Source: Chryseobacterium daecheongense
GTDB taxonomy: Bacteria; Bacteroidota; Bacteroidia; Flavobacteriales; Weeksellaceae
NCBI GenBank assembly: GCA_027920525.1
Contig: CP115858.1
Span: 1,364,001 to 1,428,000 of the forward strand
DNA length: 64,000 nucleotides
Direction of reading: 5' to 3'
Below the pieces are notes generated by a model that saw only the letters and a list, made by a program, of their open reading frames with translations, was not told the origin of the DNA and made no database searches. Shown piece after piece: positions 15,811 through 59,066 of the stretch. Each line of letters starts with the position of its first letter. The first letter of the stretch is position 1. Position numbers and translations under genes: made by a program.

Positions 15811-18800
15811 TCATTCCAAAATTTGAACATTGTCTCCTTTTGTATGAGCATTCATCTGCGGAGCATAGTAATTTTGCATCGTTGTAATACCATTTGAGAA
15901 CTTTCCGGATGCATTAGCAACATAATCATACTCAAATACATATTTCCCTTTGGGCATATATTGAATATAAAAATTTGTGGACGCATCTTTAGTAGATTGA
16001 TAATATCCTAAATTATTTTTCCACTGATATCCGGATAATACATTAAGGGGCTCAAATCCGGCTGCTCTCATATCTTTTATATGAATATACTCCATCGCAC
16101 GGTCGGTATTTAAAATCATTCTTACTGTTACTTTATCCCCTACTTTCAGTGGTGTTCCCACAGCTATTTTCTGTAGCTCTTCACCATTTACTGTTTTCAC
16201 TTTTTTATAAAGCTCTTTGGTAACGGAGATATAATTTTCTGATGATTTTATTTTATCCAGATCTTCATAATATTGCCAGAACAATCCTCCCTGCACAATT
16301 CCGGGACCCGGTTTGGTAACGGTAACCGTACTCAGGCTTTTGTCTACTGCATCCGTTTTCACTGTTGACTTTACATACCCCGTTGCCTGTGTTTGCGGTG
16401 CCAGTTCTTTTCCGCCCCAAACAATAGTTGCTTTATCACTTTCAGCACCGGTCCATGATTTTCCTGAATTTAATATCGTGAAAATCACTTCTGAAGTACC
16501 CCTTGAGCTTCCCCATGAATTAACTTCCTTCTGTGTTACCAGCCAGATCTTCATATCTTCAATGAACTTCTGATCGTTCGGTTTTAAGGTATTAAAAGCT
16601 TCTAATGCACCGGCATGGTTCACAACTTTTGAACTGAACCAGCCCCAGTCATTAAGATTCTGCTTCCAGTACACTCCCTGGGTTTTGGTATCTGTGGAAG
16701 TTTCTTTAAGATAGGTCATAAGCTTATCAGAAGTTTCCTTCATTCCATAATCGTTCATCAATAAAGCTGCCCGGTGAAGTCCGAAGAATGTAAAATCAGT
16801 GGTTTTTGCAGTTTTTGCTTTTTGTTTGACCAATGATTTTAAAGTTGCCCCTTTTCCTTTCAGAGGATATTGTTTCTCCCAATAGTTACGTGTGTCCAGA
16901 TAATCCAGAATCCAGTTGTTCCAAACATTTTCTTTCGTATCCACATATTTATTGATCTCATTATCTACATACTTTATCAATTGGGTTACCATTTCATTTT
17001 GCGTTGAACTTTGATAATCCTTGGCATTACCTTTTAACCATAAATTGATTTTACCCAGATTTTTAAGGATATACAATGACACTCCGTAAGAGCTAGGATA
17101 CCCTGAATACCATGAAAAGCCTCCATCCGGATTTTGCAGTTTTTTGAAATCATCCCAATCCTGATTGATTGAATTTTTCATTGTGTTGGCATCAAACAAT
17201 AATGCAAGCTTTTGCATCTGCTCCTGCTCATTTTTACTTTCCAGTACCCAAGGAGTTTCCTCTAATAGTAACTGCTTTAATTCCTGATTTTTTTCAAGGT
17301 TAGAATTCAATAATCCTTTGTTCTGATATTCTTCAAAAATGGTTTTCATCTTTGGGTTTGCTTTGAAAATTTCAGATGCCAAAACATCAGAAAACCATTT
17401 GTTAAAGATTACATCAGCTGAACTGTTCTGATCATTTTTCAGGCTTGGAAGGGCAAACATAATTTCCCAGATCGGATTGGTTGTGAGCTCCAGTGTATTT
17501 GAAACATTCGTTATTGTTGCTGAATTCGCATCTTTAAGATGATCCAGAACAAAAGTTTTAGTCTCTCCTTCTTTTACAAAAACAGGGACTGCATCTGTTA
17601 CCAGCATTCTGTTCGGTAAAACAGCAATTGCCTGCTGCTCCCCGTCTGAGAAAGAACCTGCTTTAGCCACTACTTTAAGGATAATAGATGAAACATTATC
17701 CGGAACCTTTACTTTCCATGTTGCAACCGAATTTCCGTTTTCACTTACATCAAAGTTCTGGGTTCCTGCATTCAATCCGAATTTTGAAGAAATGTCTTCA
17801 TTAGTAAATGCATCCAGGATTTGTAAAACAGCAGAACCATTTAATCGCTTATCCGTTAAATTAGAAAGTTTTGTCTGGAGGTTTAATTCATCACCTTCTC
17901 TTAAAAATCTTGGATAATTTGGAGTTACGGAAAATTCTTTCTGTGTAACTACTTCTTTCTCCAATGTCGCCGACCTGGCATCTTTTGTGTGAGCCAGGAA
18001 CATAAGCTTCCATTTCGTAAGCGCTTCCGGAGAAGTAAATTCAAAATTCACATTGCCTTCTGCATCCGTTTTCAGATCCGGATAGAAAAATGCTGTTTCA
18101 TTCAAATTTTGTCGAACCGGAACTTTTTCCAGAGATTCTTTTGACTGTCCACCTTCTTGATTACTTGTTCCTTTACGAACAACAACGACTTCATTTATTT
18201 CAGCCATCGCATCTACAGCGACTTCCTTAGCAGCAACAGCCGGGGCAGGTAACGCTTTACTGTAAGCAGCATTACCCCTAATTCTTATTCCACTTGCTCT
18301 TCCTTCAAGACTCTGAAGAACAGCTCCATCATAATAAAGCGAATTGTCAAACCAGTTAAATACCGGTACTTCCACATATTTACCATTCATATATTTCAGT
18401 CTCTTCTGATAATATTTTTGAAGAAGATTCTCCCTGATATCGTAAGAGGTTATGATGGTATACGGAATATATAATTTTTCCCAATCGAAGCTGTTGGCTG
18501 CAAACTGATCAAGAGACATATCATACATATTGGCCAGAACCTCAGCATTGATCTTCTCCTTATCATTTCCTGAAACTTTTACAGACCATTTCTCCTTTAC
18601 ATTAGGTTCCAGTTTATCTCTGAAAGTCACCGTCTCTATTTTAAGAGGCTTTTCAGAGTCCTTAATTTTTAAATTGACAGATTCAGTCTGCACATCATTA
18701 AATGCAACAATCTGAAATTGAACATTTAAAACAGATACACTTTTATCTTTAGGAATATCTGCTGAATACTCCAGCATTCCGTTTTTCAGCTTATAGCTTT

Positions 18801-28029: not shown

Positions 28030-29056
28030 ACGTGAGTTCGGGATAATAATAAATAAATTCATGATACAAAAAGCAGAAAAATTAGCATATTTAAAGTGTT
28101 GAAATTCAAATATTTAACTAAAATTTCTGCTATGATTTCTGATGAAAAAATTACAACTATTTATTACATTGTTGATGAGTTTTTTAAAGAATTTGATAAC
28201 GTTCTCAAAGATTATGCTCTGAAAGATCCAAAAATTAAGATCCGATACCGAAAATCTGCCATGTCTCAAAGTGAAGTAATGACTATTATGATCCTGTTTC
28301 ATTACGGTGCATTCAAAAACCTCAAGCACTTTTACCAGGGTTACGTGCAAAGACATATGAAGAAAGAATTCCCCGTAACAGTTTCCTACAATCGTTTTGT
28401 AGAACTCCAAAAGAAAGTGAATGTTCCCATGGCTGTTTTTGTGAAAATGAGGTGTCTGGGAAAATGTACAGGTATTTCTTTTATCGACTCAACACCAATC
28501 AGAGCTTGCCATATTAAAAGAGAAAAACAACACAAAACCTTTAAAAACATTGCCCAAAAAGGACAATGTTCTCTGGGTTGGTTTTATGGATTTAAACTTC
28601 ATTTGATTATTAATGACAAAGGAGAAGTTTTAGATTTTATCCTAACAACAGGAAATGTAGATGATCGAGAACCACTGAAAAGTATGGATTTGCATAAATG
28701 GATTTTTGGAAAATTATTTGGTGACAAAGGTTATATTGGGAAGGATCTATTTGAACAGCTTTTTATTGATGGTGTTCATCTCATCACAAAAATAAAGAAG
28801 AATATGAAAAATTCATTGATGCTTTTACAAGACAAAATTATGCTCAGAAAAAGAGCTTTGATAGAGTCTGTAAACGATGAACTCAAGAATATTTGTCAAA
28901 TAGAGCATACCCGTCACAGAAGTTTTGACAACTTTGTTCTGAATATTTTATCGGCTTTAGCTGCTTATTCATTCTTTGATAAAAAACCATCAATTAACAC
29001 CAATGAAGACATTATTGATGAAGATAGATTAATTGCTGCTTAAATCGAACTCACGT
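28030..29056 (+). mobile_element. Complete IS982-family insertion sequence
   Basis: A 1027-bp element bounded by inverted repeats ACGTGAGTTCG (28030-28040) and CGAACTCACGT (29046-29056), flanked by a 7-bp direct repeat TAAATTA. One transposase gene fills it. The ends, the uninterrupted gene and the intact duplication point to a recent insertion. It interrupts the short spacer between the tRNA-Arg terminator and a right-end-like repeat. Confidence 0.9.
28132..29043 (+). CDS. IS982-family transposase
   Basis: 303 residues from ATG 28132; the longer frame from 28096 uses a non-ATG start. The DDE domain shows GISFIDSTPIRACHIKRE (first Asp), FGDKGYIGKDLFEQLF (second Asp) and LKNICQIEHTRHRSFDNFVL with the Glu shortly before. 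These are the marks of IS982 transposases. The frame is complete, so the enzyme is likely active. Confidence 0.92.
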   Translation: MISDEKITTIYYIVDEFFKEFDNVLKDYALKDPKIKIRYRKSAMSQSEVMTIMILFHYGAFKNLKHFYQGYVQRHMKKEFPVTVSYNRFVELQKKVNVPMAVFVKMRCLGKCTGISFIDSTPIRACHIKREKQHKTFKNIAQKGQCSLGWFYGFKLHLIINDKGEVLDFILTTGNVDDREPLKSMDLHKWIFGKLFGDKGYIGKDLFEQLFIDGVHLITKIKKNMKNSLMLLQDKIMLRKRALIESVNDELKNICQIEHTRHRSFDNFVLNILSALAAYSFFDKKPSINTNEDIIDEDRLIAA

Positions 29057-45651: not shown

Positions 45652-48615
45652 CTAAACACTAATATACTTTTTGAGTACTTCAAGAAGATCTGCCTGCTTT
45701 ACAGGTTTGGGAAGAAAATCATTCATTCCGGCCTCAAGGCACTTTTCTTTTTCACCCAACACATTTCCTGCCGTAATGCCTATGATAGGTATATGTTCAT
45801 ATCCCGGCAGCATTCTGATATTGCGTGTTGCCTCAATACCGTCCATTATTGGCATCTGTACATCCATCATGATAATGGAAAAGTGTTTTTTCCTGCATTC
45901 TTCCAAAGCCTGTAGTCCATTGACTGCTTCCGTCAGATTTATATTGGGAGCAAAAGATTTCATTATCCTATTATTCAGGACCATATTTACTACGTTATCA
46001 TCAACCAAAAGCACTTCTAATTCCGAGGTAAATACATGCGTAACTTTCTCAGAATAATCCTTAGTAATTTCTACTGAATAGCTTTGGTCTACTTTTTTTA
46101 AAGTTTTGTATAAATCATGTGATTTGATGGGTTTTAAAAGTAAATGTGCATTATCAATTTTTCTAACTGAATTAAGTATGCTCAGTTCTTCAGAAGAAGA
46201 AGAAAGTACTATAAATGGTGAAGTCTCTTTTCGCTGATTGAACAGCTCTGTTATTTTATTTATTGTTTCCAATCCGGACATAATAGGCATATGATAATCC
46301 ATCAGGATAACATCAAATCTCTCACCTTTCAACAAGATCTCTAAGGCTTTCATCCCATTAGAAGCTAAGGTAGACTTGATATTTTTATAGGTAAGCATGT
46401 GCTCAAGAATAATCCTGTTGGTTTCATTATCATCAACCACTAAGGCCGTTTTAATAGTTATTTCCTCCTCCTCTCTCACTTGAGGAATCTCGTAAGGAAT
46501 CTCAATGTCAAAGAAAAATACAGACCCTTTTTCCCTTACGCTGTTCAGCGACAAATGACTTCCCATATATCCCAGGATAGTGTTAGAAATGGTAAGCCCC
46601 AGACCCGTGCCACCATATCGTTTACTGATGGAACTGTTTTCCTGAGTAAAGGCATTAAAAATGTATTTCTGTTTCTCAACAGGGATGCCAATTCCTGTAT
46701 CTCGTACCGAGAAGCGCAAAGCGATTGTACGATCATTCATGTGCAACTTCTCTACTTTTAGCTCAATCTCTCCCTTTTCTGTAAACTTCACAGCATTCCC
46801 CAGAAGATTGATCAAGATCTGTTTTAACCTTGCTTCATCCATATAAAGTATTTTTGGAAGGCCCGGCTCAATATTGAGAAGTAGTTCGATATCTTTTTTC
46901 TGGGATTGATAAATGATCACATTTATTACCTGGCTTAACATATCATAAACATCACATTTTTCAATCAAAAGCTCCATTTTTCCGGATTCTATCTTAGAAA
47001 AATCCAATATATCATTGATGATGCTAAGCAGGTTTTCTCCTGACTCATTGATGTAATTCAGATATTGCATCTGTGTTTCATTCAGCGGTGTCGTAAGGAG
47101 AAGGTCTGAAAAACCAATAACTCCGTTTAAAGGAGTCCTAATCTCGTGACTCATATTGGCCAGAAATTCGGATTTTGCCTTGCTGGCTATATCTGCTGTT
47201 TCTTTGGCATTTTTCAATTCTTCATTTATCTTTACAGCATTTGTAATATTCTGTATAGAAATAATTACACCACCTATTTCATCTTTTGTAAGATACCAGG
47301 GTCCAACTTTAAGGTCGTAATGCTGGATTTCTTCTTTACCTTCCACTTTTAGCGTAAAATCACCGTTAATATACGTTTTCCCCAATAGTGCATTCTCATA
47401 GATCTCTTTTCCTTTTTCGGGAATATTAGGTGATATCGTGAATAGATTATTGCCGATAAGATCTACATTATTCATACGGAATTCCTCTCTCCATCTGCTG
47501 CTTACAGCAATATAGTTAAGGTCTTTATCAAACATGGCCAAAGGAACAGGAACATCAGTGACAAAAGATTGCATTATTGCCTCTTTCCGGGAAACCTCGA
47601 GAAACATTTTTTTGAATGCATCAATGTCCTGAATGATTCCGAAAACCCTTTTGCAAATATCATCTTCAAATTCAGGAATACCTTTTACTCTTACCCAGGT
47701 CGTAACTCCATCATTACGTAAAAGCTGAAGCTCCTCATCAAAAGGAATTCCTTGTTGTATTGCCCTGTTAAACAAATATTTTATTCTTTCTCCACTTTCT
47801 CCTTTGTAAAATCCCAAGGCATTTTCAAAAGTAGGCTGGAGATCATCTTTCAGTTTGTGAATTTCTCTTGTACTTTGAGACCAAAAGATCTTTCCGGTCT
47901 TCATATTGACCTCCCAACCTCCAACCTGGGCTACTGAACTTGTTTCCTCAAGCATTTCCTTAGTATCAAACAGATCTTTTTCTAACTTACCACGACGAAT
48001 AAGGTCAGATTTTAGTTGTATATAAACAAAAATGGTTACACCAATGGCTGCAATGGCAGAAAAGATGATGAACAAAACCGTCCACTGGGAAGATTTTTTC
48101 AGATCTTCATTTTTTATAGCAAGTTGAACTTCCTCGTGTTTTACAAATTTCTGAACGAGTCTGCGACATCTGTCCATAGCCTCCTTGTTTTGTACAAGTT
48201 CTTCCGGACTCATTAATATTCCTTGTTGACGATTATTAATAAGTAAGGCATATTCCTTCATCATCATTTGTGAAGCGTCTAGCAGTTCATTTAAGACCTT
48301 AATCTGATCTTTATTTTTAAGATTAAGCCTATCTTTATTCGAAACGAGCAACGGATATTCATCTTTGCTTTTATTGAAAGGTTCAAGAAAATTTTCCCGG
48401 CCGGTAAGCTGATATCCTCTATTTCCCGTTTCAGCATTTAAAAGAGTATTTAATAAATCTTTTGCTAAGCTTATAGATTCTTTACTTTTTATGAGGTTTT
48501 CCCTATTCTCCATCTGCTTATGTATGCTGACATAAGATGCTATAGAACTAGCAATCAGAAGTACCAAAGAAATCACTACACCAATTTTAAGATTTCTTAT
48601 AATTTTTTTCGGCAT
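45652..48615 (-). CDS. Hybrid sensor histidine kinase with two receivers
   Basis: 987 residues. Domains in order: transmembrane helix (10-30), CHASE3 sensor (about 40-175, LLNAETGNRGYQLTGRENFL), second transmembrane helix (about 180-200), two PAS domains (about 225-460), HisKA (SEFLANMSHEIRTPLNGVIG, phospho-His), HATPase (RYGGTGLGLTISNTILGYMG), receiver 1 (VDDNETNRIILEHML, Asp in VILMDYHMP) and receiver 2 (VDDNVVNMVLNNRIM, Asp in IMMDVQMP). No phosphotransfer domain and no DNA-binding domain are present, so it must signal through other proteins. Single gene; partner not evident. Confidence 0.93.
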   Translation of the reverse strand: MPKKIIRNLKIGVVISLVLLIASSIASYVSIHKQMENRENLIKSKESISLAKDLLNTLLNAETGNRGYQLTGRENFLEPFNKSKDEYPLLVSNKDRLNLKNKDQIKVLNELLDASQMMMKEYALLINNRQQGILMSPEELVQNKEAMDRCRRLVQKFVKHEEVQLAIKNEDLKKSSQWTVLFIIFSAIAAIGVTIFVYIQLKSDLIRRGKLEKDLFDTKEMLEETSSVAQVGGWEVNMKTGKIFWSQSTREIHKLKDDLQPTFENALGFYKGESGERIKYLFNRAIQQGIPFDEELQLLRNDGVTTWVRVKGIPEFEDDICKRVFGIIQDIDAFKKMFLEVSRKEAIMQSFVTDVPVPLAMFDKDLNYIAVSSRWREEFRMNNVDLIGNNLFTISPNIPEKGKEIYENALLGKTYINGDFTLKVEGKEEIQHYDLKVGPWYLTKDEIGGVIISIQNITNAVKINEELKNAKETADIASKAKSEFLANMSHEIRTPLNGVIGFSDLLLTTPLNETQMQYLNYINESGENLLSIINDILDFSKIESGKMELLIEKCDVYDMLSQVINVIIYQSQKKDIELLLNIEPGLPKILYMDEARLKQILINLLGNAVKFTEKGEIELKVEKLHMNDRTIALRFSVRDTGIGIPVEKQKYIFNAFTQENSSISKRYGGTGLGLTISNTILGYMGSHLSLNSVREKGSVFFFDIEIPYEIPQVREEEEITIKTALVVDDNETNRIILEHMLTYKNIKSTLASNGMKALEILLKGERFDVILMDYHMPIMSGLETINKITELFNQRKETSPFIVLSSSSEELSILNSVRKIDNAHLLLKPIKSHDLYKTLKKVDQSYSVEITKDYSEKVTHVFTSELEVLLVDDNVVNMVLNNRIMKSFAPNINLTEAVNGLQALEECRKKHFSIIMMDVQMPIMDGIEATRNIRMLPGYEHIPIIGITAGNVLGEKEKCLEAGMNDFLPKPVKQADLLEVLKKYISV

Positions 48616-48906: not shown

Positions 48907-49551
48907 TTACTGATTATATAGCCTGAGAATTTCCACCAATTCAGGTATGGATCGTATCTTCAGCTTCTCAAACAACCTGTTTTTATACGTACTGATCGTT
49001 GATGAATGGAGATTCAACTGATTAGAAATTTCTTTAAGGGGAAGGCCTTCTGCAAGTTTATTGGCAATTTGCAATTCCCGGTCTGATAGTGCTTCAAGGG
49101 GAGAATTTTTTCCTGAACCGGTTAATGATTCAAAAAAAATCGCTTCTTTTATATTATCACTGATATATCGGCCTTTACTGACCATCGCCGTTAAAGCGGT
49201 CTCAATTACTTCAGCGGAACTCAGCTTGCTTAGATAGCCTCCTGCCCCCATTTTTAGATAGCGCATCCCATACAGCTCTTCATCCTGTGAAGAAAATATC
49301 AGAGTTTTTAATTCAGGCTGGTGAATCTTTATGTAATCTATTGCTTCCTGAACAGTACCATTAGGCATATTAACATCCATAATGGCCAGATCCAGCTTTT
49401 CATTCAGAATTAATTTGTACAGCGATTTATAATCCTCTACTTCTGAAATGATGGCATCGGGTATCAATCGTTTGATCGTTTGTATCAAGCCCATCCGAAC
49501 GATACCATGATCATCTGCTACTACAATACGAATGTTTACTTTTAAACCCAT
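48907..49551 (-). CDS. NarL/LuxR-type response regulator
   Basis: 214 residues. The receiver domain has RIVVADDHGIVRMGLIQTI and LDLAIMDVNMPNGTVQEAID (phospho-Asp), ending with YLSKLSS (conserved Lys). The C-terminal HTH reads LSDRELQIANKLAEGLPLKE and LHSSTISTYKNRLFEKLKIR. Its start overlaps the kinase stop by 1 bp. It sits between the hybrid kinase and the pilin-type cluster and is the nearest candidate regulator for the TGTAGT sites before the pilin genes (inference). Confidence 0.92.
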   Translation of the reverse strand: MGLKVNIRIVVADDHGIVRMGLIQTIKRLIPDAIISEVEDYKSLYKLILNEKLDLAIMDVNMPNGTVQEAIDYIKIHQPELKTLIFSSQDEELYGMRYLKMGAGGYLSKLSSAEVIETALTAMVSKGRYISDNIKEAIFFESLTGSGKNSPLEALSDRELQIANKLAEGLPLKEISNQLNLHSSTISTYKNRLFEKLKIRSIPELVEILRLYNQ

Positions 49552-50285
49552 TATTCTATAAATTTATGTAAAAAAAGGGAAACCGTAGTGCCATTATCTT
49601 CAGTGGAAATGATTTGGATGTTTCCATGCAGCAAGGATATAAAATTTTTTACAATTTTCAAACTTAACCCAGCTCCTTTCTCGCCGGCAGTCCCCAGGAA
49701 TATAGGATTACCATACGTATAGATCGCAGGTAAATACTTTTCATTGATTCCCATTCCGGAATCAATTACAGAAAGCACAACCTGATCATCCTCTGTAATC
49801 ACCTGTAAATAAACATCCTGTCCCGGAAAGGAATATTTTACCGCATTGTTAAAAATTTTATCTAAAACGTATTCGATCAACAGGCGGTCGCTTGTAAGAA
49901 ACGCGTTATGATCTCCCTTAAAATAAAATTGAATATTTTTTTCTTTTAATTTAGCAGCGTATTTTTCTTCTAAATAGTGAAAAAGATCTATCACCATAAT
50001 TTTAACGGGTCTAATCTTAAATTCCCCGTATTGCGTTTTTAGCCAGGCAACGCTGTCCTGGATAGTTTGCAGATTCTTCTGGGCATCTTTTTTTACCTGC
50101 GGCAACAACTTAAAAAAATCTTCCTCACTTATGGTCTTCTGCTCTAGCTCCTCTATAAGCCAAAGGAAGGTTCCAAACAGTTCTTTTGAGTCATGAGACA
50201 ATATCGAGATCAGTCCGTTCTTAAAATTGATTTCGTTTTCGAGTCTTTCAATTTTCAATTGTAGTTCGTTGATAAAATCACTCAT
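49551..50285 (-). CDS. Soluble sensor histidine kinase
   Basis: 244 residues, no signal peptide and no transmembrane segment. A coiled coil (residues 1-25) leads to a His box, GLISILSHDSKELFGTFLWL, and the ATPase part has DKIFNNAVKYSFPGQDVYL, VIDSGMGINEKYLPAIYTYG and EKGAGLSLKIVKNFISLLHG. It lacks a known sensor domain, so it may read a cytoplasmic cue or act through another protein. The start of the response regulator overlaps its stop. Confidence 0.88.
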   Translation of the reverse strand: MSDFINELQLKIERLENEINFKNGLISILSHDSKELFGTFLWLIEELEQKTISEEDFFKLLPQVKKDAQKNLQTIQDSVAWLKTQYGEFKIRPVKIMVIDLFHYLEEKYAAKLKEKNIQFYFKGDHNAFLTSDRLLIEYVLDKIFNNAVKYSFPGQDVYLQVITEDDQVVLSVIDSGMGINEKYLPAIYTYGNPIFLGTAGEKGAGLSLKIVKNFISLLHGNIQIISTEDNGTTVSLFLHKFIE

Positions 50286-50891: not shown

Positions 50892-52325
50892 TTAAATTGC
50901 CGTAAAGCTATAATAAACATTGATAGAGTAAGTGGTATTTTCCTTTCCTACCAAACTTTGAGCACCCGCAGGTGGTATGGTGTATCTTATGTTCAGTCCC
51001 CGGTCCAAAACCGGTGCTCCGTTAAAAAGTATTTTTTGAGGAGTTTTGGATAAGGGAACATTTACAGAACTTCCATCTATGCCTATTTGTAATATGTTGG
51101 AATTGATATCGGTCTGGAGGCCACCTTTCTTGAAATAATTTTCGTCCGATTTAACATAGAGCTCGAAATTTTCATTGTTGGAAAGCATAATTTGGTTTGG
51201 AACCATTTGTGACTGACCATTGGTGTAATGGGCAGCGGTATTAAAATTGAAATTTACATTTCGGCCGGAACTGGGAATGGTAATCTCCGACAGAGGGAGC
51301 ACTTTTATCTGAACAGCCGTATTTTGTAAACTATTGATTGAGTTATCTGTGCTTCTGGCATTGAAATTCAATTCAAACGTATAAGTTCCAGCTTCAAAAA
51401 AATAGTTTTTAAAATCTTCAGCAGACACATGAAGCTCTGGAATGAAGCTATTTCTGTTTCCCGCTACAACACTGAAATTAGCCGTGGAAAAATTCTGAAA
51501 ATCGGCAGATAAGGCTTTGGTCGTGAGAGCTGAGCCATTGCTAGCCAATTTAATGCTTGCTATATTTCTGGCTCCTGAAACACCTTTAGAGGAAGTGAAC
51601 TGAACGTTAGTGGAAGCAGCTTTTGCCCAAAAATTAAAATCGACCGTATGCGCGATTTCCGTATTCCCCAAATCCCATACCCGCGTGCCCGTATTGCGAT
51701 AGTCATTCAAAGAAGATATTTCTATGTATTTTGTTAAAGAGTTTGTAATCCATCGTATAGATGAAGGAATCACTAAAATAGTTTTAAAATTACGTGGTGT
51801 AAAGTCATTATAATTTTGAGTAATTTCCATGGAGTAATTCCCAGCCCGAAAGGTATTGGCAGTAAATTGTGAAGCGGGAATTTTAAATGTAAAATTGATA
51901 TTTCCCCGATTGAACCCTCCCCCAAGACTGGTCGATGGTGGTTCAAACCATTTTATGGCGCTTGTACTGAACGACTGAAAACCTGGTAAATAACCTGTTA
52001 ATCCGGTATATGGCAGCTGCCCACCCATACTTTCCAACTGCCACAGTAGAATGGAAGCGGGTAAAGTAAGCGAGGAAGAAGAGTGGGTAAAAGTTGGTCC
52101 CGAAACAGAGGTAAATGTAGGAGCTGTCGGGAGTATCCCTAAAAAGGCATAATCCCAGTTTGTTCTGTTGGCGTTCGTCATTACTCTTGTAGGTACTGAG
52201 GTAAATTCGCTCCTGTTAAAAATATTATTTTCAGGAACCGAAAGGTACACATCCTGAGCTTTCGTAGCTGTAGATCCGCAAAGTACAGTAAAAATTCCTA
52301 TTAAAAAAGCCCTCTTCTTTTTCAT
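50892..52325 (-). CDS. Two-part tip-adhesin-like secreted protein
   Basis: 477 residues with signal peptide (MKKKRAFLIGIFTVLCGSTA). The N-terminal two thirds are beta-rich and unlike known families (GGQLPYTGLTGYLPGFQSFS, RWITNSLTKYIEISSLNDYR). The C-terminal part resembles the pilin subunits of the cluster: it has the RYTIPPAGAQSLVGKENTTY segment and ends SINVYYSFTAI, parallel to DYTIPAAKSSSSDILGKPAG and TYTQTVTYTATAL. This is the layout of a receptor domain fused to a pilin domain, as in chaperone-usher tip adhesins. It is the last gene after chaperone and usher-like genes, 10 bp after the usher. Confidence 0.7.
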   Translation of the reverse strand: MKKKRAFLIGIFTVLCGSTATKAQDVYLSVPENNIFNRSEFTSVPTRVMTNANRTNWDYAFLGILPTAPTFTSVSGPTFTHSSSSLTLPASILLWQLESMGGQLPYTGLTGYLPGFQSFSTSAIKWFEPPSTSLGGGFNRGNINFTFKIPASQFTANTFRAGNYSMEITQNYNDFTPRNFKTILVIPSSIRWITNSLTKYIEISSLNDYRNTGTRVWDLGNTEIAHTVDFNFWAKAASTNVQFTSSKGVSGARNIASIKLASNGSALTTKALSADFQNFSTANFSVVAGNRNSFIPELHVSAEDFKNYFFEAGTYTFELNFNARSTDNSINSLQNTAVQIKVLPLSEITIPSSGRNVNFNFNTAAHYTNGQSQMVPNQIMLSNNENFELYVKSDENYFKKGGLQTDINSNILQIGIDGSSVNVPLSKTPQKILFNGAPVLDRGLNIRYTIPPAGAQSLVGKENTTYSINVYYSFTAI

Positions 52326-52335
52326 ACTTTTAAAT

Positions 52336-55140
52336 TTAAAACTTTTTCACCTTAATGATGGTGTCTTTCTTCTTGTATTCAAAAATCACGGTTTTTGAGT
52401 AACCTTCTTTTGTCACCAAAATGGTTTGGGTGGGTTGTGTATAGCTGTATTTGTCATTTTCAATATAGAGATCATACTTGCCGTCTTTGAGGAAAAACTC
52501 AAACTCATTCTTTGGGTTAACCACTGCGGTATAAATTTTACCATCTTCCCCTTTTGCATATACTACAATTCCTGTTACATCTGTTTCTACAGTATCGTAA
52601 GCTTGTTTAATCTCCGTTAATTTCCCAGTTACTCTGATGTTTTTTACCAAGCCCACTTTGCGGTTGATATTATTGTGCACCATAATGACAGGATCCGTCA
52701 TCAACCGGGAGCCCGCACTTTCGTTCACCTTCAGGGTATAAGTACCTTCAGGAACATTCTGAAAAACTACTTTTCCATTCTTATCCGTCATCGCTACATA
52801 ATTGTCCAGTTTTACAATTTCATTAGCAAGTACCGATTCACCGGACTCCAGAAGTCCATTATAGTTTTTATCTTCAAAGAACTGGAATGCCACTTTATGA
52901 TTTCCTAGAGCCGTAGCGGTGGTAAAATATTTTTTAATTCCCACCCTGAACTGGTAATAAATGCCGCTGCTTGCATATTCAGCCGTAGATTTATAACCGG
53001 AAAGATTAAAATAACCTGTGGTGGACCAGGAAGGCGAAATCTTATATTCCAGATTACCGGTAATATTGCTGTTTAAATTTTTATAAAGTTCCGAATAGAA
53101 GGCTCCGGCAGAAAAAGATCCGGTCAGATTATGATTGAGCATCTGGAAATTATACGAGGCGTATACATTGTAGTTGGCAAAATTACGGTCTGCATTGTAA
53201 TAAGAAGTTAAATCAAAGACACTGGTAGCATTCCATTGGGCAGTTCCGTTAAGGGAAAATGATTTATATCTGTAAGATAAAGTTGTTTTCAGACTATTGA
53301 ACCAGTCCTGTTTATTGTTCTCTTTTGAATAAGAATATTCCGCCGTTAGGTTGAATCCATGAGCACCTAATGTCGTGCTTATATTGGCTTCCAACTTGTA
53401 TGAAAAAAGCTCCTGTGATGTATAAAAATTAGCTGTTTTCTGGTTTTCAACCTTTGGAGAAAGTAGAAAATTCCACTTCTTTAAAGAAAACTGATAGCCT
53501 AACCCCAAAGCTTCTGTACTGTTGAAATAATAGCGCAAATTAGCGGTATTCCCCGGTTGGATTGGCTCACTTTGGAAACTTAGGAACTCAGGTTCTACCT
53601 GCGAATTCTGATATTGTATAAAAGCGCGTTGAGAAGCGGAAAATTGGTGACCGATTCGCTGATTTGAGAAAAAAGATCCCCGCTTGATCCCTGCATAGCT
53701 TTTGGTGGCAAAGGAATTGAAAGATTGTATATCCCATCTCCCTATTTTCCCCTCATAATTGGCTCCCATTAAAGCTCCAGCATTTTCATCTTTATTCAAA
53801 AGACCTTCTTCGTGGCTCAGGCCCATCTCCATGCGGATGGTGTGTTTATCATTAATTAGCAATGAAGTTACTGCATTCGCTACCTGTGTATCTATGTTAA
53901 AGCGCGGATCATGGTCAAATATATAGGATACTTTCCCGTTGAAAGATTTAGCATTCCCAAAACCATATTTTGCACCCACCATGGTAGATCCTTTTGTTTG
54001 TTGGAAATAAGTACCATACAAGTTATAATTATTTTCAAGCGCAAGAATTTCAATCTGATTGTTTTTACCAAATTTCGTAGAAACTTTCCCTCCTCTACCG
54101 AAAATCGGGTAATCGTAATCATTGCTATTAACATTTCCCACCCGTAATACCGTATTTTTTCTCTCCAATTCCAGCCAGGTATCATAGAAGTTATAACGGC
54201 CGTCTTCATGATAGTAATCTGCATTAATATTGAAACGCGATCTCAAATTATCTGTCACCCGAAACGCTGTATTCCCTCTCAATTGAAAATAATTGAAACC
54301 TGAACTGTTTTCATTATAACTAATTTCCGCAAAATTACTTCCGCCCATCGCTTCGTTTCCCCGGGCAATTTGTCTGTTGTGCGATAAAACGACCAGATAG
54401 AGCGTGTTGCTTCCTACTATTTTATTATCAAGCAGATCTGTGACTATTGCATTAATATTAAATTCGGGATAAATTGTATTCTGTTTTCTGACCGCAATTT
54501 TGATCTCAATCGTTTGTTTTTCTAAGCCCTCCAGAGATACGGTTTGTTGCTTTGGCATCATTTCCAAACCATCGGGAATGGATTGCAAATCAATCTTAAC
54601 GGTTCGTTTACTGTACCCTTGGTTTTCTACAGTCAGCAGGATTGAGGATTCGGGCACAGCAGGGTTAATGAAATTTTCGTATGTAGCTGTATAAATTGCG
54701 ATATTTTTGTTCTCGCCTTTGGTAACGAAGAAAGAGGCATTTTCAGTTCTGGTAATCGTCGGGGTAACGTACGAAATCTGGAATTGGATCTCATTGGACC
54801 GAAGTTTCATAAAATCCACGTTGGCGATCAGTTTCACAGGAAGATTTTTAGACTGGCCCGCACCTAAGATAAAATCATTTTTAGGATAGAAAAGCAATCC
54901 CGGATATTTTTCCTTGGGTATAATATTCTGAATGGTAATCTCTTCAGAACTTTTATTCTCAATAACCAGGAAATTGCTAAAAGTAGAACCTTTCTCAACA
55001 GCTACGCTGTCATTTTCAAAATGGATTTGAATATCCTTCTTTTCCTGCGCAAAGGCCAACGAAAAGTGCAGAAAAACAATTACAAAAAATAAGATTGTTC
55101 TTCTTAGCAATGATATCGGTATTCCATTCTGTGGTTTCAA
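52336..55140 (-). CDS. Usher-like outer-membrane beta-barrel protein
   Basis: 934 residues. Signal peptide RRTILFFVIVFLHFSLAFAQ. Residues about 35-255 are two Ig-like domains (FLVIENKSSEEITIQNIIPK, ILLTVENQGYSKRTVKIDLQ). Residues about 260-740 are amphipathic aromatic-rich strands with alternating polarity (NYFQLRGNTAFRVTDNLRSR, NFLLSPKVENQKTANFYTSQ), as in a large outer-membrane barrel. The end has two more Ig-like domains (QFFEDKNYNGLLESGES, YTAVVNPKNEFEFFLKDGKY). This order mirrors ushers (N domain, barrel, C domains). The start is TTG at 55138-55140, 9 bp after the chaperone stop; no ATG precedes the signal peptide. I recognise no exact family. Confidence 0.7.
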   Translation of the reverse strand: MKPQNGIPISLLRRTILFFVIVFLHFSLAFAQEKKDIQIHFENDSVAVEKGSTFSNFLVIENKSSEEITIQNIIPKEKYPGLLFYPKNDFILGAGQSKNLPVKLIANVDFMKLRSNEIQFQISYVTPTITRTENASFFVTKGENKNIAIYTATYENFINPAVPESSILLTVENQGYSKRTVKIDLQSIPDGLEMMPKQQTVSLEGLEKQTIEIKIAVRKQNTIYPEFNINAIVTDLLDNKIVGSNTLYLVVLSHNRQIARGNEAMGGSNFAEISYNENSSGFNYFQLRGNTAFRVTDNLRSRFNINADYYHEDGRYNFYDTWLELERKNTVLRVGNVNSNDYDYPIFGRGGKVSTKFGKNNQIEILALENNYNLYGTYFQQTKGSTMVGAKYGFGNAKSFNGKVSYIFDHDPRFNIDTQVANAVTSLLINDKHTIRMEMGLSHEEGLLNKDENAGALMGANYEGKIGRWDIQSFNSFATKSYAGIKRGSFFSNQRIGHQFSASQRAFIQYQNSQVEPEFLSFQSEPIQPGNTANLRYYFNSTEALGLGYQFSLKKWNFLLSPKVENQKTANFYTSQELFSYKLEANISTTLGAHGFNLTAEYSYSKENNKQDWFNSLKTTLSYRYKSFSLNGTAQWNATSVFDLTSYYNADRNFANYNVYASYNFQMLNHNLTGSFSAGAFYSELYKNLNSNITGNLEYKISPSWSTTGYFNLSGYKSTAEYASSGIYYQFRVGIKKYFTTATALGNHKVAFQFFEDKNYNGLLESGESVLANEIVKLDNYVAMTDKNGKVVFQNVPEGTYTLKVNESAGSRLMTDPVIMVHNNINRKVGLVKNIRVTGKLTEIKQAYDTVETDVTGIVVYAKGEDGKIYTAVVNPKNEFEFFLKDGKYDLYIENDKYSYTQPTQTILVTKEGYSKTVIFEYKKKDTIIKVKKF

Positions 55141-55149
55141 GACTTAATT

Positions 55150-55950
55150 TTAAAATTTAAAGTTTTTTTCTCCTACGCGTAAATCATTTGATTCTGCCAT
55201 TTTGATAATAACCACGCCAAGGAAGTTCCCTGAAATGTTCTCTGGCAAGGAAAATTGAACGACCTGATTGGTATCGGGAAGCATAGAGATGGAAATTGCG
55301 GGTAATTTTATTTCCTTACCACTGTCTGTATTGGTGAGTTCAAACTCAACGGTGGCATCATTGATGGTGTTTCCATCATTATGGATACTTACTGCGACTT
55401 TTCTGTTCGCTGCATTCTCATTACTCGCTTCTGAAATATTGGTAATATCCAAACTTTTTACGTGGTTACCCGGTGGAGTATAAAAGATGTGGAGCCCCAC
55501 CTCAAATAAGGTGATAATACCAATACCATTCTGAATACGTGCCTTATCAGCCTGCTGAGGAAGTTGGGTGAAAAACAACATACTGTTTGTGACGGCAGAC
55601 TTTGATGCATTTGCAGGAATCTGCATGGTTACTACAATTTCCTTTGTACTTTTTGCAGGAACTGTTACAGTATTTTCTAAAGTAGATATCCAGGATGCGT
55701 TGGAAGTTTTTGAACTGCCTGCTTCAAGATAAACCTTATTTCCGTCTTCTTCTCTAACCCAATCTTTATAGTTGAGATTAAAAACATAATCCTTATCGGA
55801 GCTGTTTTGAAGCGTGACTGTCTTTGTTACTTTTTCACCTGGATTACCTGTGAAAAACAAGCGTGTAGGCGACATTGAAATACTTTGTGCCAGAAGTGAG
55901 GAATATCCCGCGAGGATAAAGAAAATGAAAAGATGAATGAACTTGTGCAT
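55150..55950 (-). CDS. PapD-like periplasmic chaperone
   Basis: 266 residues with signal peptide (MHKFIHLFIFFILAGYSSLL). The first Ig domain reads SISMSPTRLFFTGNPGEKVT and KTVTLQNSSDKDYVFNLNY, then TVPAKSTKEIVVTMQIPANA, matching pili-assembly chaperone N-terminal domains. The second domain begins after the HIFYTPPGNHVKSLDITNIS segment. A chaperone of this type would complete folding of pilins by donating a strand. It lies 80 bp after a pilin gene and 9 bp before the usher-like gene. Confidence 0.8.
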   Translation of the reverse strand: MHKFIHLFIFFILAGYSSLLAQSISMSPTRLFFTGNPGEKVTKTVTLQNSSDKDYVFNLNYKDWVREEDGNKVYLEAGSSKTSNASWISTLENTVTVPAKSTKEIVVTMQIPANASKSAVTNSMLFFTQLPQQADKARIQNGIGIITLFEVGLHIFYTPPGNHVKSLDITNISEASNENAANRKVAVSIHNDGNTINDATVEFELTNTDSGKEIKLPAISISMLPDTNQVVQFSLPENISGNFLGVVIIKMAESNDLRVGEKNFKF

Positions 55951-56030
55951 GGTGTAAATAGTTTAATAATAAAGATTCCCAAAACTACTGAAAACGCATC
56001 AAAATGGACCTTTACAAACTAAAAATTTTA

Positions 56031-56576
56031 TTATAAAGCAGTCGCTGTATAAGTTACTGTTTGCGTGTAAGTTCCGGCAGGTTTACCTAAAATATCAGAT
56101 GATGATGATTTTGCAGCTGGAATGGTGTAGTCCAGATTCAGTGTTAATGCGCTTCCGAGAGGAGCGTTTGCTACTAAAGTTTTTTCTCCTGCTGATAAAA
56201 TCACATCAGTTTTTGTTCCGCCCATATTTCCAGGAGCAGCTGCGGCTTTGATTGTCAAAACATCTACAGGGATGGAGTTTAAACCATTGACGAAAGTCGG
56301 GCCACCTGCTTTTACCTTTACATTAAAGTTCTTCGTTGAGGTGATTTTCAAAGCCGAGGCTTGAGCCACTGTTTTTTCCGAATTATAGTCCATTGCAGTA
56401 ACATAGTTAAAGGCAACTGTTCCTCCCATTGCAGTACTTCCTGCATCAATAGAGATTACATCGTTCAGGGTAATGTTTACGGTTGTGGTTGCGGTTGTAT
56501 TTTGAGCTTGAACATTGTTAGATCCTAACATGATTGCTCCAATAGTTAAGGCTGCGATTGCGATTTGTTTTGTCAT
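56031..56576 (-). CDS. Pilin-like subunit 1
   Basis: 181 residues with signal peptide (MTKQIAIAALTIGAIMLGSN then NVQAQ). The mature N-terminus alternates polar and hydrophobic residues (NTTATTTVNITLNDVISIDA), as expected for a donor-strand extension. The body has KITSTKNFNVKVKAGGPTF and the end LDYTIPAAKSSSSDILGK then YTQTVTYTATAL. Length, all-beta pattern and termini fit a secreted fibre subunit; no named family can be assigned. It is the pilin gene directly before the chaperone gene, with no terminator between. It has its own promoter block (56627-56695). Confidence 0.72.
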   Translation of the reverse strand: MTKQIAIAALTIGAIMLGSNNVQAQNTTATTTVNITLNDVISIDAGSTAMGGTVAFNYVTAMDYNSEKTVAQASALKITSTKNFNVKVKAGGPTFVNGLNSIPVDVLTIKAAAAPGNMGGTKTDVILSAGEKTLVANAPLGSALTLNLDYTIPAAKSSSSDILGKPAGTYTQTVTYTATAL

Positions 56577-56626
56577 GGTAGTATTATTAATTTTTATTCT
56601 TGTTTATTTGCTCTCTTTGAACACTA

Positions 56627-56695
56627 CAAATCTACAGTGGCGATAAAAGTTTCTTTGTAGTGGAAAGAGGAAGTTGATGTAGTAAAATAACTACA
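56627..56695 (-). promoter_or_regulatory. Promoter/operator block before pilin 1
   Basis: Minus-strand -7 box TAGATTTG (56627-56634). Upstream lie TGTAGT at 56656-56661 and 56678-56683 (plus-strand reading, 22 bp apart), the second forming an inverted repeat with ACTACA at 56690-56695. The same block precedes pilins 2 and 3. Confidence 0.65.
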
Positions 56696-56723
56696 GTATT
56701 ATTCATCTGGTTTAAATAGAAAA

Positions 56724-56750
56724 CCCTCAACACTTTACCGGTATTGAGGG
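56724..56750 (-). terminator. Hairpin after pilin 2
   Basis: CCCTCAA (56724-56730) pairs with TTGAGGG (56744-56750), with extra AC/GT pairing inside. On the minus strand TTTTC follows. It separates pilin 2 from the promoter of pilin 1. Confidence 0.65.
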
Positions 56751-56776
56751 CATATTTATATATAAATGTGTTTTTA

Positions 56777-57322
56777 TTATAAAGCAGTCGCAGTATAAGT
56801 TACTGTTTGAGTATAAGTTCCGGCCGGTTTACCTAAAATATCAGAAGATGATGATTTTGCAGCTGGAATAGTGTAATCCAAATTCAGTGTTAATGCGCTT
56901 CCTAGTGGGGCATTTGTAACTAAATTCTGATCAGTTGCAGATAAAACTACAGCATTTTTTGTTCCCCCCATGGTTCCGGCAGCTGTAGCTGCTTTGATGG
57001 TCAAAACATTGACAGGGATTAAGTTCGTTCCATTCATGAAATTAGCACCTCCTGCTTTTACTTTAACATTAAAGTTCTTCGTTGAAGTTACTTTTAAAGA
57101 GTTAGCCTTAGTAATCGTCTGATCAGAATTATAGTCTGCTGCAGTAACATAGTTAAAATCAACCGTGTTACCAATGGCTGTACTTCCTGCGTCGATAGAT
57201 ATTACGTCGTTCAGGGTAATGTTTACGGTTGTAGTTGCAGTTGTATTTTGAGCTTGAACATTGTTAGTTCCAAATATGATTGCTCCAAAAGTTAAGGCTG
57301 TGATTACGATTTGTTTTGTCAT
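56777..57322 (-). CDS. Pilin-like subunit 2
   Basis: 181 residues; the protein is the same as subunit 3 except residue 2 (Thr instead of Lys). Signal peptide to NVQAQ, N-terminal NTTATTTVNITLNDVISIDA, core SLKVTSTKNFNVKVKAGGAN, C-terminal strand YTQTVTYTATAL. The nearly unchanged DNA against 57776-58321 shows a recent duplication or gene conversion. Own promoter block (57376-57444) and own terminator (56724-56750). Proposed role: main or alternative fibre subunit assembled by the chaperone and usher-like proteins downstream. Confidence 0.72.
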   Translation of the reverse strand: MTKQIVITALTFGAIIFGTNNVQAQNTTATTTVNITLNDVISIDAGSTAIGNTVDFNYVTAADYNSDQTITKANSLKVTSTKNFNVKVKAGGANFMNGTNLIPVNVLTIKAATAAGTMGGTKNAVVLSATDQNLVTNAPLGSALTLNLDYTIPAAKSSSSDILGKPAGTYTQTVTYTATAL

Positions 57323-57375
57323 GATAGTAATATTTTATTGTTATTTTTTACTTAATTGTTATCTTTTGTATACTG

Positions 57376-57444
57376 CAAATTTATAGTGGTGCTAAAAGTT
57401 TCCTTGTAGTGGAAAACGGAAGTTCATGTAGTAAAATAACTACA
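57376..57444 (-). promoter_or_regulatory. Promoter/operator block before pilin 2
   Basis: Minus-strand -7 box TAAATTTG (57376-57383). Plus-strand TGTAGT at 57405-57410 and 57427-57432, 22 bp apart, and ACTACA at 57439-57444. The block is almost the same as the one before pilin 3. Confidence 0.65.
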
Positions 57445-57474
57445 AGGTTTATTCATTTAACTTAAATAGTAAAG

Positions 57475-57501
57475 CCCTCAACACTTTCTAATTGTTGAGG
57501 G
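57475..57501 (-). terminator. Hairpin after relic pilin tail
   Basis: CCCTCAACA (57475-57483) pairs with TGTTGAGGG (57493-57501). It follows the relic C-terminus at 57527 in the same order as hairpins behind the intact pilins. Confidence 0.65.
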
Positions 57502-57526
57502 AGTATATAAATTCCTGTAATTTCTA

Positions 57527-57571
57527 TTATAAGGCTGTCGCAATATAAACTACCGTTTGCGTATAATTTTT
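57527..57571 (-). pseudogene. Relic C-terminal tail of a further pilin
   Basis: Minus-strand codons read KNYTQTVVYIATAL and a stop at 57527-57529, clearly derived from the YTQTVTYTATAL end of the intact pilins. The rest of the gene is gone. The relic still has a hairpin behind it, so a fifth pilin unit once stood here. Confidence 0.75.
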
Positions 57572-57775
57572 ATTTAGGTTTTCACAAAAAATATTTATAG
57601 GTTGGTAAATGTGTTATCATTGTTATTTAAAACAAAGATTCTACCTTACATCTGACAGATACTTATTCCCGGATTTTGAATTGTATTTATACCGGTACAA
57701 TATATATAAAATCAAAGGCCTCCTGAGGAAGCCTTCGAAACACCAAATCACAAAATATTAATATGAAAAATTAAT
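57572..57775. other. Spacer between relic and pilin 3
   Basis: About 200 bp. A weak hairpin AAGGC..TCC/GGA..GCCTT at about 57715-57735 may end the pilin 3 transcript. No promoter block is present here. Confidence 0.4.
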
Positions 57776-58321
57776 TTATAAAGCTGTTGCAGTATAAGTT
57801 ACTGTTTGAGTATAAGTTCCGGCCGGTTTACCTAAAATATCAGATGATGATGATTTTGCAGCTGGAATAGTGTAATCCAAATTCAGTGTTAATGCGCTTC
57901 CTAGTGGGGCATTTGTAACTAAATTCTGATCAGTTGCAGATAAAACTACAGCATTTTTTGTTCCCCCCATGGTTCCGGCAGCTGTAGCTGCTTTGATGGT
58001 CAAAACATTGACAGGGATTAAGTTCGTTCCATTCATGAAATTAGCACCCCCTGCTTTTACTTTAACATTAAAGTTCTTCGTTGAAGTTACTTTTAAAGAG
58101 TTGGCTTTAGTAATCGTCTGATCAGAATTATAGTCTGCTGCAGTAACATAGTTAAAATCAACCGTATTACCAATGGCTGTACTTCCCGCGTCAATAGATA
58201 TTACGTCGTTCAGGGTAATGTTTACGGTTGTAGTTGCAGTTGTATTTTGAGCTTGAACATTGTTAGTTCCAAATATGATTGCTCCAAAAGTTAAGGCTGT
58301 GATTACGATTTGTTTTTTCAT
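57776..58321 (-). CDS. Pilin-like subunit 3
   Basis: 181 residues, signal peptide MKKQIVITALTFGAIIFGTN to NVQAQ. From residue 3 on it is the same as subunit 2. It ends LGKPAGTYTQTVTYTATAL. All cysteine-free, all-beta, with an alternating N-terminal stretch, as expected for a strand-exchange fibre subunit. Own promoter block (58375-58443). Only a weak hairpin follows before the relic pilin tail. Confidence 0.72.
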   Translation of the reverse strand: MKKQIVITALTFGAIIFGTNNVQAQNTTATTTVNITLNDVISIDAGSTAIGNTVDFNYVTAADYNSDQTITKANSLKVTSTKNFNVKVKAGGANFMNGTNLIPVNVLTIKAATAAGTMGGTKNAVVLSATDQNLVTNAPLGSALTLNLDYTIPAAKSSSSDILGKPAGTYTQTVTYTATAL

Positions 58322-58374
58322 GGTGGTAATATTTTATTGTTATTTTTTACTTAATTGTTATCTTTTGTATACTG

Positions 58375-58443
58375 CAAATTTATAGTGGTGCTAAAAGTTT
58401 CTTTGTAGTGGAAAACGGAAGTTCATGTAGTAAAATAACTACA
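58375..58443 (-). promoter_or_regulatory. Promoter/operator block before pilin 3
   Basis: Minus-strand -7 box TAAATTTG (58375-58382). Plus-strand TGTAGT at 58404-58409 and 58426-58431, 22 bp apart; ACTACA at 58438-58443 makes a palindrome with a 6-bp spacer. Confidence 0.65.
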
Positions 58444-58465
58444 AGATTTACTCATATGATAAATG

Positions 58466-58502
58466 AAAAGCCCTCGATACTTTTGTAGTATCGAGGGCTT
58501 TT
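58466..58502. terminator. Strong terminator after pilin 4
   Basis: AAAAGCCCTCGATACT (58466-58481) pairs with AGTATCGAGGGCTTTT (58487-58502), a perfect 16-bp stem with a 5-nt loop. Confidence 0.88.
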
Positions 58503-58523
58503 CTATTTAAAATTGATATTTAC

Positions 58524-59066
58524 TTACAATGCAGTGGCAGTATAAGTTATTTTTTGTGTATAAGTTCCTTGTGGTTTTCCTAAAAGTACCTTTGATGCAT
58601 TTTCCGCAGAAATAGAGTAAGCAATATTTAAAGACTGTTTGGTACCCAAACTTGCATTACTCACCAATACCTGATCATTTGGAGATAAAGTGACCTCATT
58701 CAGAGTTCCCACCAAACTTCCGCCTGGTATCGCTTTTACCTGTAATATATCTACAGGAATAACGTTTGCGCCATTTACAAAGTGTGCCCCTTCAGATTTT
58801 ACTTTTACATCAAAATTTTTAGAGGAAATAATGACTAAACTATTGGGAACGGTCACATTTTTTGATGAATTATAATCTTTTGTGCTCCCATAATTAAAAC
58901 CTACGGCACCTTCTGAAGCAGCAGAGCCAATATCCATTGCAATAACGTCTGATAAAATAATATTGACTGATGTACTCACCTGCTCTGAATTTTGTGCCAT
59001 AACCCGGTGGGTTCCTAAGGCAGTTGCTCCCAGAGATAACGCAACGATAAAGATTTGCTTTTTCAT
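58524..59066 (-). CDS. Pilin-like subunit 4 (divergent)
   Basis: 180 residues with signal peptide MKKQIFIVALSLGATALGTH. The protein keeps the family plan (VSTSVNIILSDVIAMDIGSA, VIISSKNFDVKVKSEGAHFV, LGKPQGTYTQKITYTATAL) but differs from the other three throughout the middle. It may be a minor or anchoring subunit. It lacks the TGTAGT promoter block; its upstream DNA has a 7-bp tandem repeat instead. A strong terminator isolates it from the other pilins. Confidence 0.7.
   Translation of the reverse strand: MKKQIFIVALSLGATALGTHRVMAQNSEQVSTSVNIILSDVIAMDIGSAASEGAVGFNYGSTKDYNSSKNVTVPNSLVIISSKNFDVKVKSEGAHFVNGANVIPVDILQVKAIPGGSLVGTLNEVTLSPNDQVLVSNASLGTKQSLNIAYSISAENASKVLLGKPQGTYTQKITYTATAL

Follow-up and report, generated by a model that had tools for sequence, protein, structure and literature searches.

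A cluster of seven genes in the genome of Chryseobacterium daecheongense probably represents a distinct chaperone-usher-like lineage, and its operon would serve to assemble an adhesive fibre on the cell surface in a chaperone-usher-like manner. The cluster lies in the window analysed here, a stretch of 64,000 nucleotides (nt) of contig CP115858.1 (G000:C1:1364001-1428000) from a 4.86 Mb genome that consists of a single contig. A lineage of this kind had been proposed in a sequence-only reading of the same DNA, and the proposal is supported by gene order, by a profile match between its chaperone family and chaperones of the PapD type, by the co-inheritance of chaperone and usher-like protein, and by the lack of a match of the 934-residue protein to any transporter family in Pfam, NCBIfam or PDB sequences. 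As far as sequence comparison can tell, the usher-like protein is a separate lineage and not a plain FimD (see below).

Organization of the operon

Seven open reading frames on the minus strand occupy positions 50892-59066 of the window, where the sequence-only reading had placed them, and the parts that it had named (four pilin-like subunits, a chaperone, a protein of 934 amino acids (aa) and a two-part protein) are found in that order:

58524..59066, minus strand: pilin-like subunit 1, 180 aa; the first gene and the most divergent copy, 53% to subunit 4
57776..58321, minus strand: pilin-like subunit 2, 181 aa; 180/181 identical to subunit 3
56777..57322, minus strand: pilin-like subunit 3, 181 aa
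56031..56576, minus strand: pilin-like subunit 4, 181 aa; adjoins the chaperone gene, with no hairpin called between them
55150..55950, minus strand: PapD-like periplasmic chaperone with tandem immunoglobulin (Ig) domains, 266 aa; G1-type strand at about residues 143-159; matched by Pfam WxLIP_PGBD, with a family profile that matches E. coli K-12 chaperones
52336..55140, minus strand: usher-like protein, 934 aa, TTG start; no PF00577
50892..52325, minus strand: two-part subunit, possible tip adhesin, 477 aa; pilin domain at 334-476; relatives in several of the same operons

The chaperone and usher-like genes are separated by 9 nt, and the usher-like and two-part genes by 10 nt. All seven proteins have signal-peptide-like starts (by eye), and the TTG start of the 934-aa protein aligns with the first residue of its relatives. 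The frames are real genes: relatives of the usher-like protein range down to 13-20% identity when aligned over the full length, and 201 relatives of the chaperone are found at E<=1e-3. The gene order is that of yraHIJK and yehDCBA of E. coli K-12, except for the number of pilins, which is one there. Automatic annotation of the relatives includes "fimbria/pilus outer membrane usher protein" (P0108), "fimbrial biogenesis chaperone" (P0121, P0136, P0201) and "P pilus assembly chaperone PapD" (P0125, P0134). The label "TonB-dependent receptor", given to another relative (P0075) by one source, was taken for an automatic error. Six of the seven proteins were searched against NCBIfam and gave no match over cut-off; the chaperone matches TIGR04090 at 0.0017, below cut-off.

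The chaperone family

In Pfam, the window chaperone is matched by WxLIP_PGBD (29.4 bits, cut-off 27.3) and by fn3_5 and others, and the PapD_N and PapD_C models do not match it up to E 1. Searches of PDB with the single usher and single chaperone sequences returned nothing useful. By comparison of profiles, 26 Bacteroidota chaperones match six chaperones of E. coli K-12 (FimC, SfmC, ElfD, YraI, YehC and EcpB) at 95.5% (E 1.5e-8), over 201 columns that span both Ig domains. In the control comparisons, the reversed profile gives 0.3%, and 15 other proteins of the window, taken as single sequences, give at most 1.2%. At the profile level, the family is kin to PapD-type chaperones, with broader tandem-Ig kin. 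A G1-like strand, identified by eye, precedes the domain linker, and its hydrophobic residues alternate in the way a G1 donor strand should; its column 145 is Ile or Val in 24 of the 26 chaperones, and columns 149, 151, 153 and 155 are mostly hydrophobic.

The usher-like protein

Three regions can be delineated by eye in the 934-aa protein: an Ig pair (residues ~30-255), a barrel-like middle part (~256-735) and two C-terminal domains (~736-934). Pfam yields only matches below cut-off, mostly to Ig-like and carboxypeptidase-regulatory-like families. The Usher model, PF00577, has no match in this protein up to E 1, none elsewhere in its genome, and none over cut-off across 247 Bacteroidota genomes, with E. 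coli as a positive control, in agreement with the earlier remark that the protein is not recognisable as the FimD or CfaC type. Two weak PF00577 matches occur among these 247 genomes, in open frames of 1010 and 1455 aa (G175 and G235, respectively); the same frames are also matched by the C-terminal part of the window usher profile. A match to an unrelated transporter family, named in the sequence-only reading as an outcome that would speak against it, was sought in Pfam, NCBIfam and PDB sequences, and none was found; a transporter was accordingly rejected as a candidate, there being no such match in Pfam and no match over cut-off in NCBIfam for the six proteins searched.

The N-terminal Ig pair resembles the chaperone, a point absent from the sequence-only reading. 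It matches the chaperone profile at 95.5% within the whole protein and at 89.2% as an isolated segment (0.2% when reversed), and matches the N-domains of other ushers below 1% (0.1% for those of K-12). Other Ig-type proteins match this pair weakly, namely FixG_C in Pfam and PDB chains at E 0.0034-0.02.

Comparison of the whole profile of window-type ushers (alignment A7, 36 rows) with that of six K-12 ushers gives 7.1% (hhalign). A crude count of amphipathic strands, made on a rough scale of our own, gives 22-30 strands for the window family and 17-28 for the K-12 ushers, and is too loose to decide on a 24-strand outer-membrane barrel. By eye, the first barrel strands looked like those of FimD; this likeness was lost in a sliding-window test and is not claimed.

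Family A ushers

Five loci of other Bacteroidota genomes (L107, L108, L109, L110 and L113), which we call family A, encode ushers of 850-1171 aa with a FimD-like plug stretch, adjoining chaperone genes and pilin-like open frames. Against the six K-12 ushers, family A ushers score 96.3% (E 1.9e-9; 623 columns, the plug stretch among them), and 0.6% when reversed. By segment, the barrels match at 95.0% in global and 62.8% in local mode, and the N-domains at 0.9%. Between the window family and family A, the match is confined to the two C-terminal domains (98.8%, E 6e-17; 99.2% when these are compared as segments); the C-terminal part of window-type ushers against K-12 ushers gives 4.4%. The chaperones of the window type and of family A match at 99.3%. 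Weak TPR or SPOR matches are seen at the usher tail in two family A loci.

Plug profiles found no match in the 36 window-type ushers, the best E values being 0.15 and 0.21, both in the C-terminal part; the C-terminal profile of family A matches 33 of the same 36. Such profiles miss the plug between family A and E. coli as well, and within E. coli they miss that of EcpC; a window-type usher devoid of a plug is therefore suggested, not shown. We do not claim membership in the FimD family, because three of its defining features are lacking in the window protein, namely a match to PF00577, barrel homology by sequence, and an N-terminal domain of the FimD type, the last of which is lacking in family A also.

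Pilin-like subunits and the two-part protein

Three of the pilin genes are tandem copies, with DNA identity of 82-99% over 300 nt, and a leader of 85 nt is repeated upstream of copies 2-4. The signal peptides of all four pilins end in ...AQN and contain no Cys. By eye, the mature part of each pilin opens with an alternating strand, the pattern that a donor strand should have. Pfam gives nothing below E 0.2 for the four pilins or the 477-aa protein, and in PDB two solved "TLP" proteins are matched weakly by the pilin profile (E 0.0015 and 0.005).

The sequence-only reading had likened the last protein of the operon to a two-part tip adhesin. Its two-part layout is borne out: a one-sequence search aligns residues 334-476 with the pilin profile (E 3.7e-24), and this pilin domain follows a stretch of ~300 residues, which is the layout of two-part adhesins. 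A two-part gene precedes the usher gene at four other loci (L072, L074, L106 and L145).

Pilin-like DNA is also found on two Chryseobacterium plasmids, H1 (NZ_CP033935.1) and H2 (NZ_CP033916.1), where it is ~83% like the pilin genes, matches window positions 56777-58498, and is annotated as "peptidoglycan-binding protein LysM". A tblastn search of the usher against the plasmid collection gave no match, and the plasmid genes are possibly orphan pilin genes.

Distribution and co-inheritance

The single sequence of the window usher has matches in 15 of 296 Bacteroidota genomes, several of them covering the C-terminal part only. A profile of 10 rows reaches 94 of the same genomes at E 1e-3, mostly with short C-terminal matches; full-length matches are found in seven of the 94, in 12 copies, two of which are in the genome of the window itself. 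An 11-row version, run at E 1e-10 against 395 Bacteroidia genomes, picks out 54, many of which were first seen as an N- or C-terminal part only. Within the genus, 91 of 148 genomes match the usher at E 1e-50, many with two matches, some of which are pieces.

Twenty loci were fetched from the Bacteroidia search, mostly the strongest matches, and each has an open frame of 901-1196 aa that fits the usher profile. The chaperone and pilin profiles contain no row from these loci. In 17 of the 20, a chaperone match lies no more than 6 kb from the usher, and 17 of the 20 have a pilin match. The misses are L152 and L158 (no called chaperone), L163 and L164 (no called pilin) and L156, at a contig end, which has neither. 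Tree distances of ushers and chaperones are correlated across 24 loci (r 0.88), with none of 5000 permutations as high. These loci are the window, seven earlier ones and 16 of the 20 fetched; L152, L156 and L158 were dropped for want of a chaperone and L164 for a short one.

The genome has another, divergent copy of the system, absent from the sequence-only reading, at a place outside the window (locus L106, G000:C1:1664104-1666890), with an AraC-like open frame (by eye) upstream. In two genus members, G723 and G699, the usher match is broken up and interrupted by stop codons, which may mean that some strains have lost the system.

Proposed pathway and alternative readings

Subunits would enter the periplasm by means of their signal peptides, where the tandem-Ig chaperone would bind each of them by inserting its G1 strand into the subunit groove. 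The 934-aa protein, presumably in the outer membrane, would then take over the chaperone-subunit complex, probably via its own chaperone-like Ig pair, and the N-terminal strand of the next subunit would displace the chaperone strand while the fibre exits through the barrel; the two-part protein would be the likely tip. The donor-strand exchange, the pore, the outer-membrane place, the tip role and the docking role of the Ig pair are features that we infer.

A number of observations weigh against the chaperone-usher-like reading. The barrel has no sequence match to that of FimD (6.0% local and 6.9% global as a segment, below 3% in each of six subgroups) or to family A barrels (0.5%), whether whole profiles, segments, sliding windows or the six subgroups are used. 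When their C-terminal parts alone are compared, family A and K-12 ushers match at just 37.4%. The first C-terminal domain is of the widespread SdrD_B or carboxypeptidase-regulatory type in Pfam, in PDB the usher profile scores best, through its C-terminal part, against NOMO2 (1e-10) and SdrD (2.7e-9), and such domains are common to many other large proteins; for these reasons the C-terminal link to FimD is soft. The two C-terminal Ig-like domains that the sequence-only reading had counted towards usher order are thus weaker support than it implies, their fold being widespread. One locus chosen by its C-terminal-domain match (L111) has no chaperone- or pilin-like neighbours, so that these domains alone are not diagnostic. 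As to the chaperone, the single window sequence matches those of K-12 at 15.4% only, no PapD-type PDB chain is found up to E 10 with the family profile, and the best solved relative is the Gram-positive EfmWxLIP1 (E 3.8e-5, both Ig domains). The Ig pair of the usher is matched by the chaperone profile no less well than PapD types are, which makes tandem-Ig kinship a broad one. The correlation of usher and chaperone trees was obtained without an unrelated gene as a control, and thus speaks for co-inheritance only, not for contact. The mature two-part protein, too, starts with an alternating strand; its tip role is therefore not certain, and another position is possible.

The residues that would anchor the subunit were compared at what we take to be the PapD Arg and Lys positions, with all places assigned by eye. 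Arg is found at the first of them in 14 of the 26 chaperones, the window protein included; 23 of 26 have Gly where the Lys would stand, and only 12 of 26 have Pro at the position of the superfamily proline, the window protein having E92 there. Classical chaperones bind the subunit C-terminus via Arg and Lys, and one proline is invariant in the superfamily, according to the available part of PMC4654587; subunit anchoring in this family would therefore differ from the classical one.

The 934-aa protein might instead be an ordinary FimD-family usher that has drifted past sequence detection, plug and N-domain included, which would make the locus a remote member of the archaic group. Its C-terminal domains are shared with family A, which does match FimD types; in one of the six window-type subgroups the match to family A extends into the barrel, over 452 columns; and the middle part, by its boundaries drawn by eye, has roughly the length of a FimD barrel minus its plug. 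The N-terminus, however, matches the chaperone and not the N-domains of other ushers, and the plug profiles came out empty where the C-terminal profile succeeded, an argument that is weak inasmuch as cross-family plug detection fails elsewhere. On balance we consider such drift unlikely. It is improbable, in our estimate, that the locus encodes a Gram-negative version of a WxL surface complex, in which the "chaperone" would stay as a partner similar to the WxL-interacting protein and pilins would coat the cell without usher-driven polymerisation. The above-cut-off Pfam match of the window chaperone to WxLIP_PGBD, the similarity to EfmWxLIP1, and an additional match to WxLIP_HBD (1.9e-8) in the L112 chaperone all speak for a complex of this kind; the absence of a WxL domain from the pilins and the two-part protein up to E 1, the co-travelling usher-like partner, the kinship of the chaperone family to PapD profiles and the pilin domain of the two-part protein speak against it. 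Export of the subunits through the barrel as separate surface proteins, and not as a fibre, appears very improbable, since a polymer fits with the multiple pilin copies, with the pilin domain of the two-part protein, and with the hairpins, which could promote strong expression of the subunits.

Within the favoured chaperone-usher-like reading, we tentatively entertain a bolder version, quite possible though short of probable: a separate secretion lineage, in which the export barrel was not derived from FimD or has lost its plug, and has acquired a copy of its own chaperone as an N-terminal module for docking and gating; before strand exchange, subunits would then be handed over by the free chaperone to the built-in one. 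If true, Bacteroidota would have a further route to building the cell surface, beside type V pili and the type IX secretion system (T9SS). If the usher is plugless and has a chaperone-like N-domain, it would test which usher parts are needed for fibre assembly. Since the window usher profile matches 54 of the 395 Bacteroidia genomes and the standard Usher model matches none of 247 Bacteroidota genomes over its cut-off, this large phylum may contain a pathway for fibres that escapes that model, and the strong matches in 91 of 148 genus genomes suggest that the system may bear on attachment and biofilm in Chryseobacterium.

Hairpins, candidate regulators and other genes of the window

The following minus-strand elements accompany the operon:

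58465..58503, minus strand: hairpin with T-rich tail directly 3' of subunit 1; stable fold, supported by position and recurrence in relatives
57712..57738, minus strand: hairpin with T-rich tail 3' of subunit 2; from the scan for terminator-like sites and from relatives
56723..56751, minus strand: hairpin with T-rich tail 3' of subunit 3; same basis
49551..50285, minus strand: histidine kinase-like ATPase protein, candidate regulator; HATPase_c 5.4e-16
48907..49551, minus strand: LuxR-type response regulator, candidate regulator; Response_reg 4.7e-16, GerE 3.4e-14

Hairpins follow pilins 1, 2 and 3. The region has 6 terminator-like sites, against 5.7 expected from shuffles; as this number is not above chance, the argument rests on their place and on the relatives. 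Across loci L001-L051, which are close relatives and not independent, the best folding energy in 45 nt after a pilin has a mean of -18.7 at 101 pilin-to-pilin junctions, as compared with -10.5 at 49 junctions before the chaperone and -8.5 at 204 random places. Such placement fits a tuning of subunit ratios. A similar device is found in the pap operon.

The histidine kinase and LuxR pair flanking the operon are candidate regulators; open frames near-equal in size to this pair (244 and 212 aa) lie near the operon of locus L075, beside which there is also a 932-aa frame. A hybrid sensor kinase of 987 aa (45652-48615; CHASE3, PAS, HisKA and two receiver stretches) is encoded near the operon in the window. 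Farther away are the genes of an alpha-2-macroglobulin-like protein of 1964 aa (15811-21705; bMG10, MG2, A2M) and of a DDE transposase (28096-29043), the latter listed with a GTG start.

Comparison with known systems

No title on a Bacteroidota chaperone-usher system was found among the literature matches listed. In the portions of two reviews available, the usher family is listed in Proteobacteria, Spirochaetae, Cyanobacteria and Deinococcus/Thermus (PMC4827864), and archaic systems in Proteobacteria, Cyanobacteria and Deinococcus-Thermus (PMC4654587), Bacteroidota being named in neither list. The genome scan of PMC4793230 left out the chaperone-usher pathway, judging by the part available.

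Type V pili (FimA/Mfa1) share with the window system the phylum Bacteroidota, and a donor-strand mechanism has been proposed for them (PMC4789730, available portion). Unlike them, the window pilins have no lipoprotein cysteine in their signal peptides and no FimA-type match in Pfam, and the locus includes chaperone and usher-like genes; a type V pilus was rejected on the first two of these counts. T9SS cargo was rejected as well, as the Pfam model Por_Secre_tail matches none of the seven proteins up to E 1.

The chaperone family is sequence kin of the Gram-positive WxL-interacting proteins (DUF916/DUF3324), as seen in the matches of the family to EfmWxLIP1 and of the window chaperone to PF06030. 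The two clusters differ in that the window locus has an usher-like partner and shows no WxL domain match up to E 1 in its pilins or two-part protein. This kinship is a hint of shared ancestry of WxL complexes and chaperone-usher systems; the terms PapD, chaperone and donor do not occur in the main text of the paper on the WxL-interacting protein (PMC10599100).

Family A ushers resemble the window type in their adjoining chaperone genes, pilin-like frames, and closely matching chaperones and C-terminal domains, and differ from it in having a FimD-like plug stretch and another N-domain, neither of which is found in the window type. Chaperone-usher pili proper (type 1, Yra and Yeh of E. coli K-12, and Csu) differ in the PF00577 match, the FimD-type N-domain, the detectable plug and the barrel, which has no sequence counterpart in the window type, as well as in the classical Lys anchor, whose place (assigned by eye) is mostly Gly in the window chaperone family. 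What they share with the window system is the gene order, the kinship of the two-domain Ig chaperones, an alternating N-terminal strand in the subunits (by eye), a two-part last protein with a pilin domain, and the order of domains in the usher.

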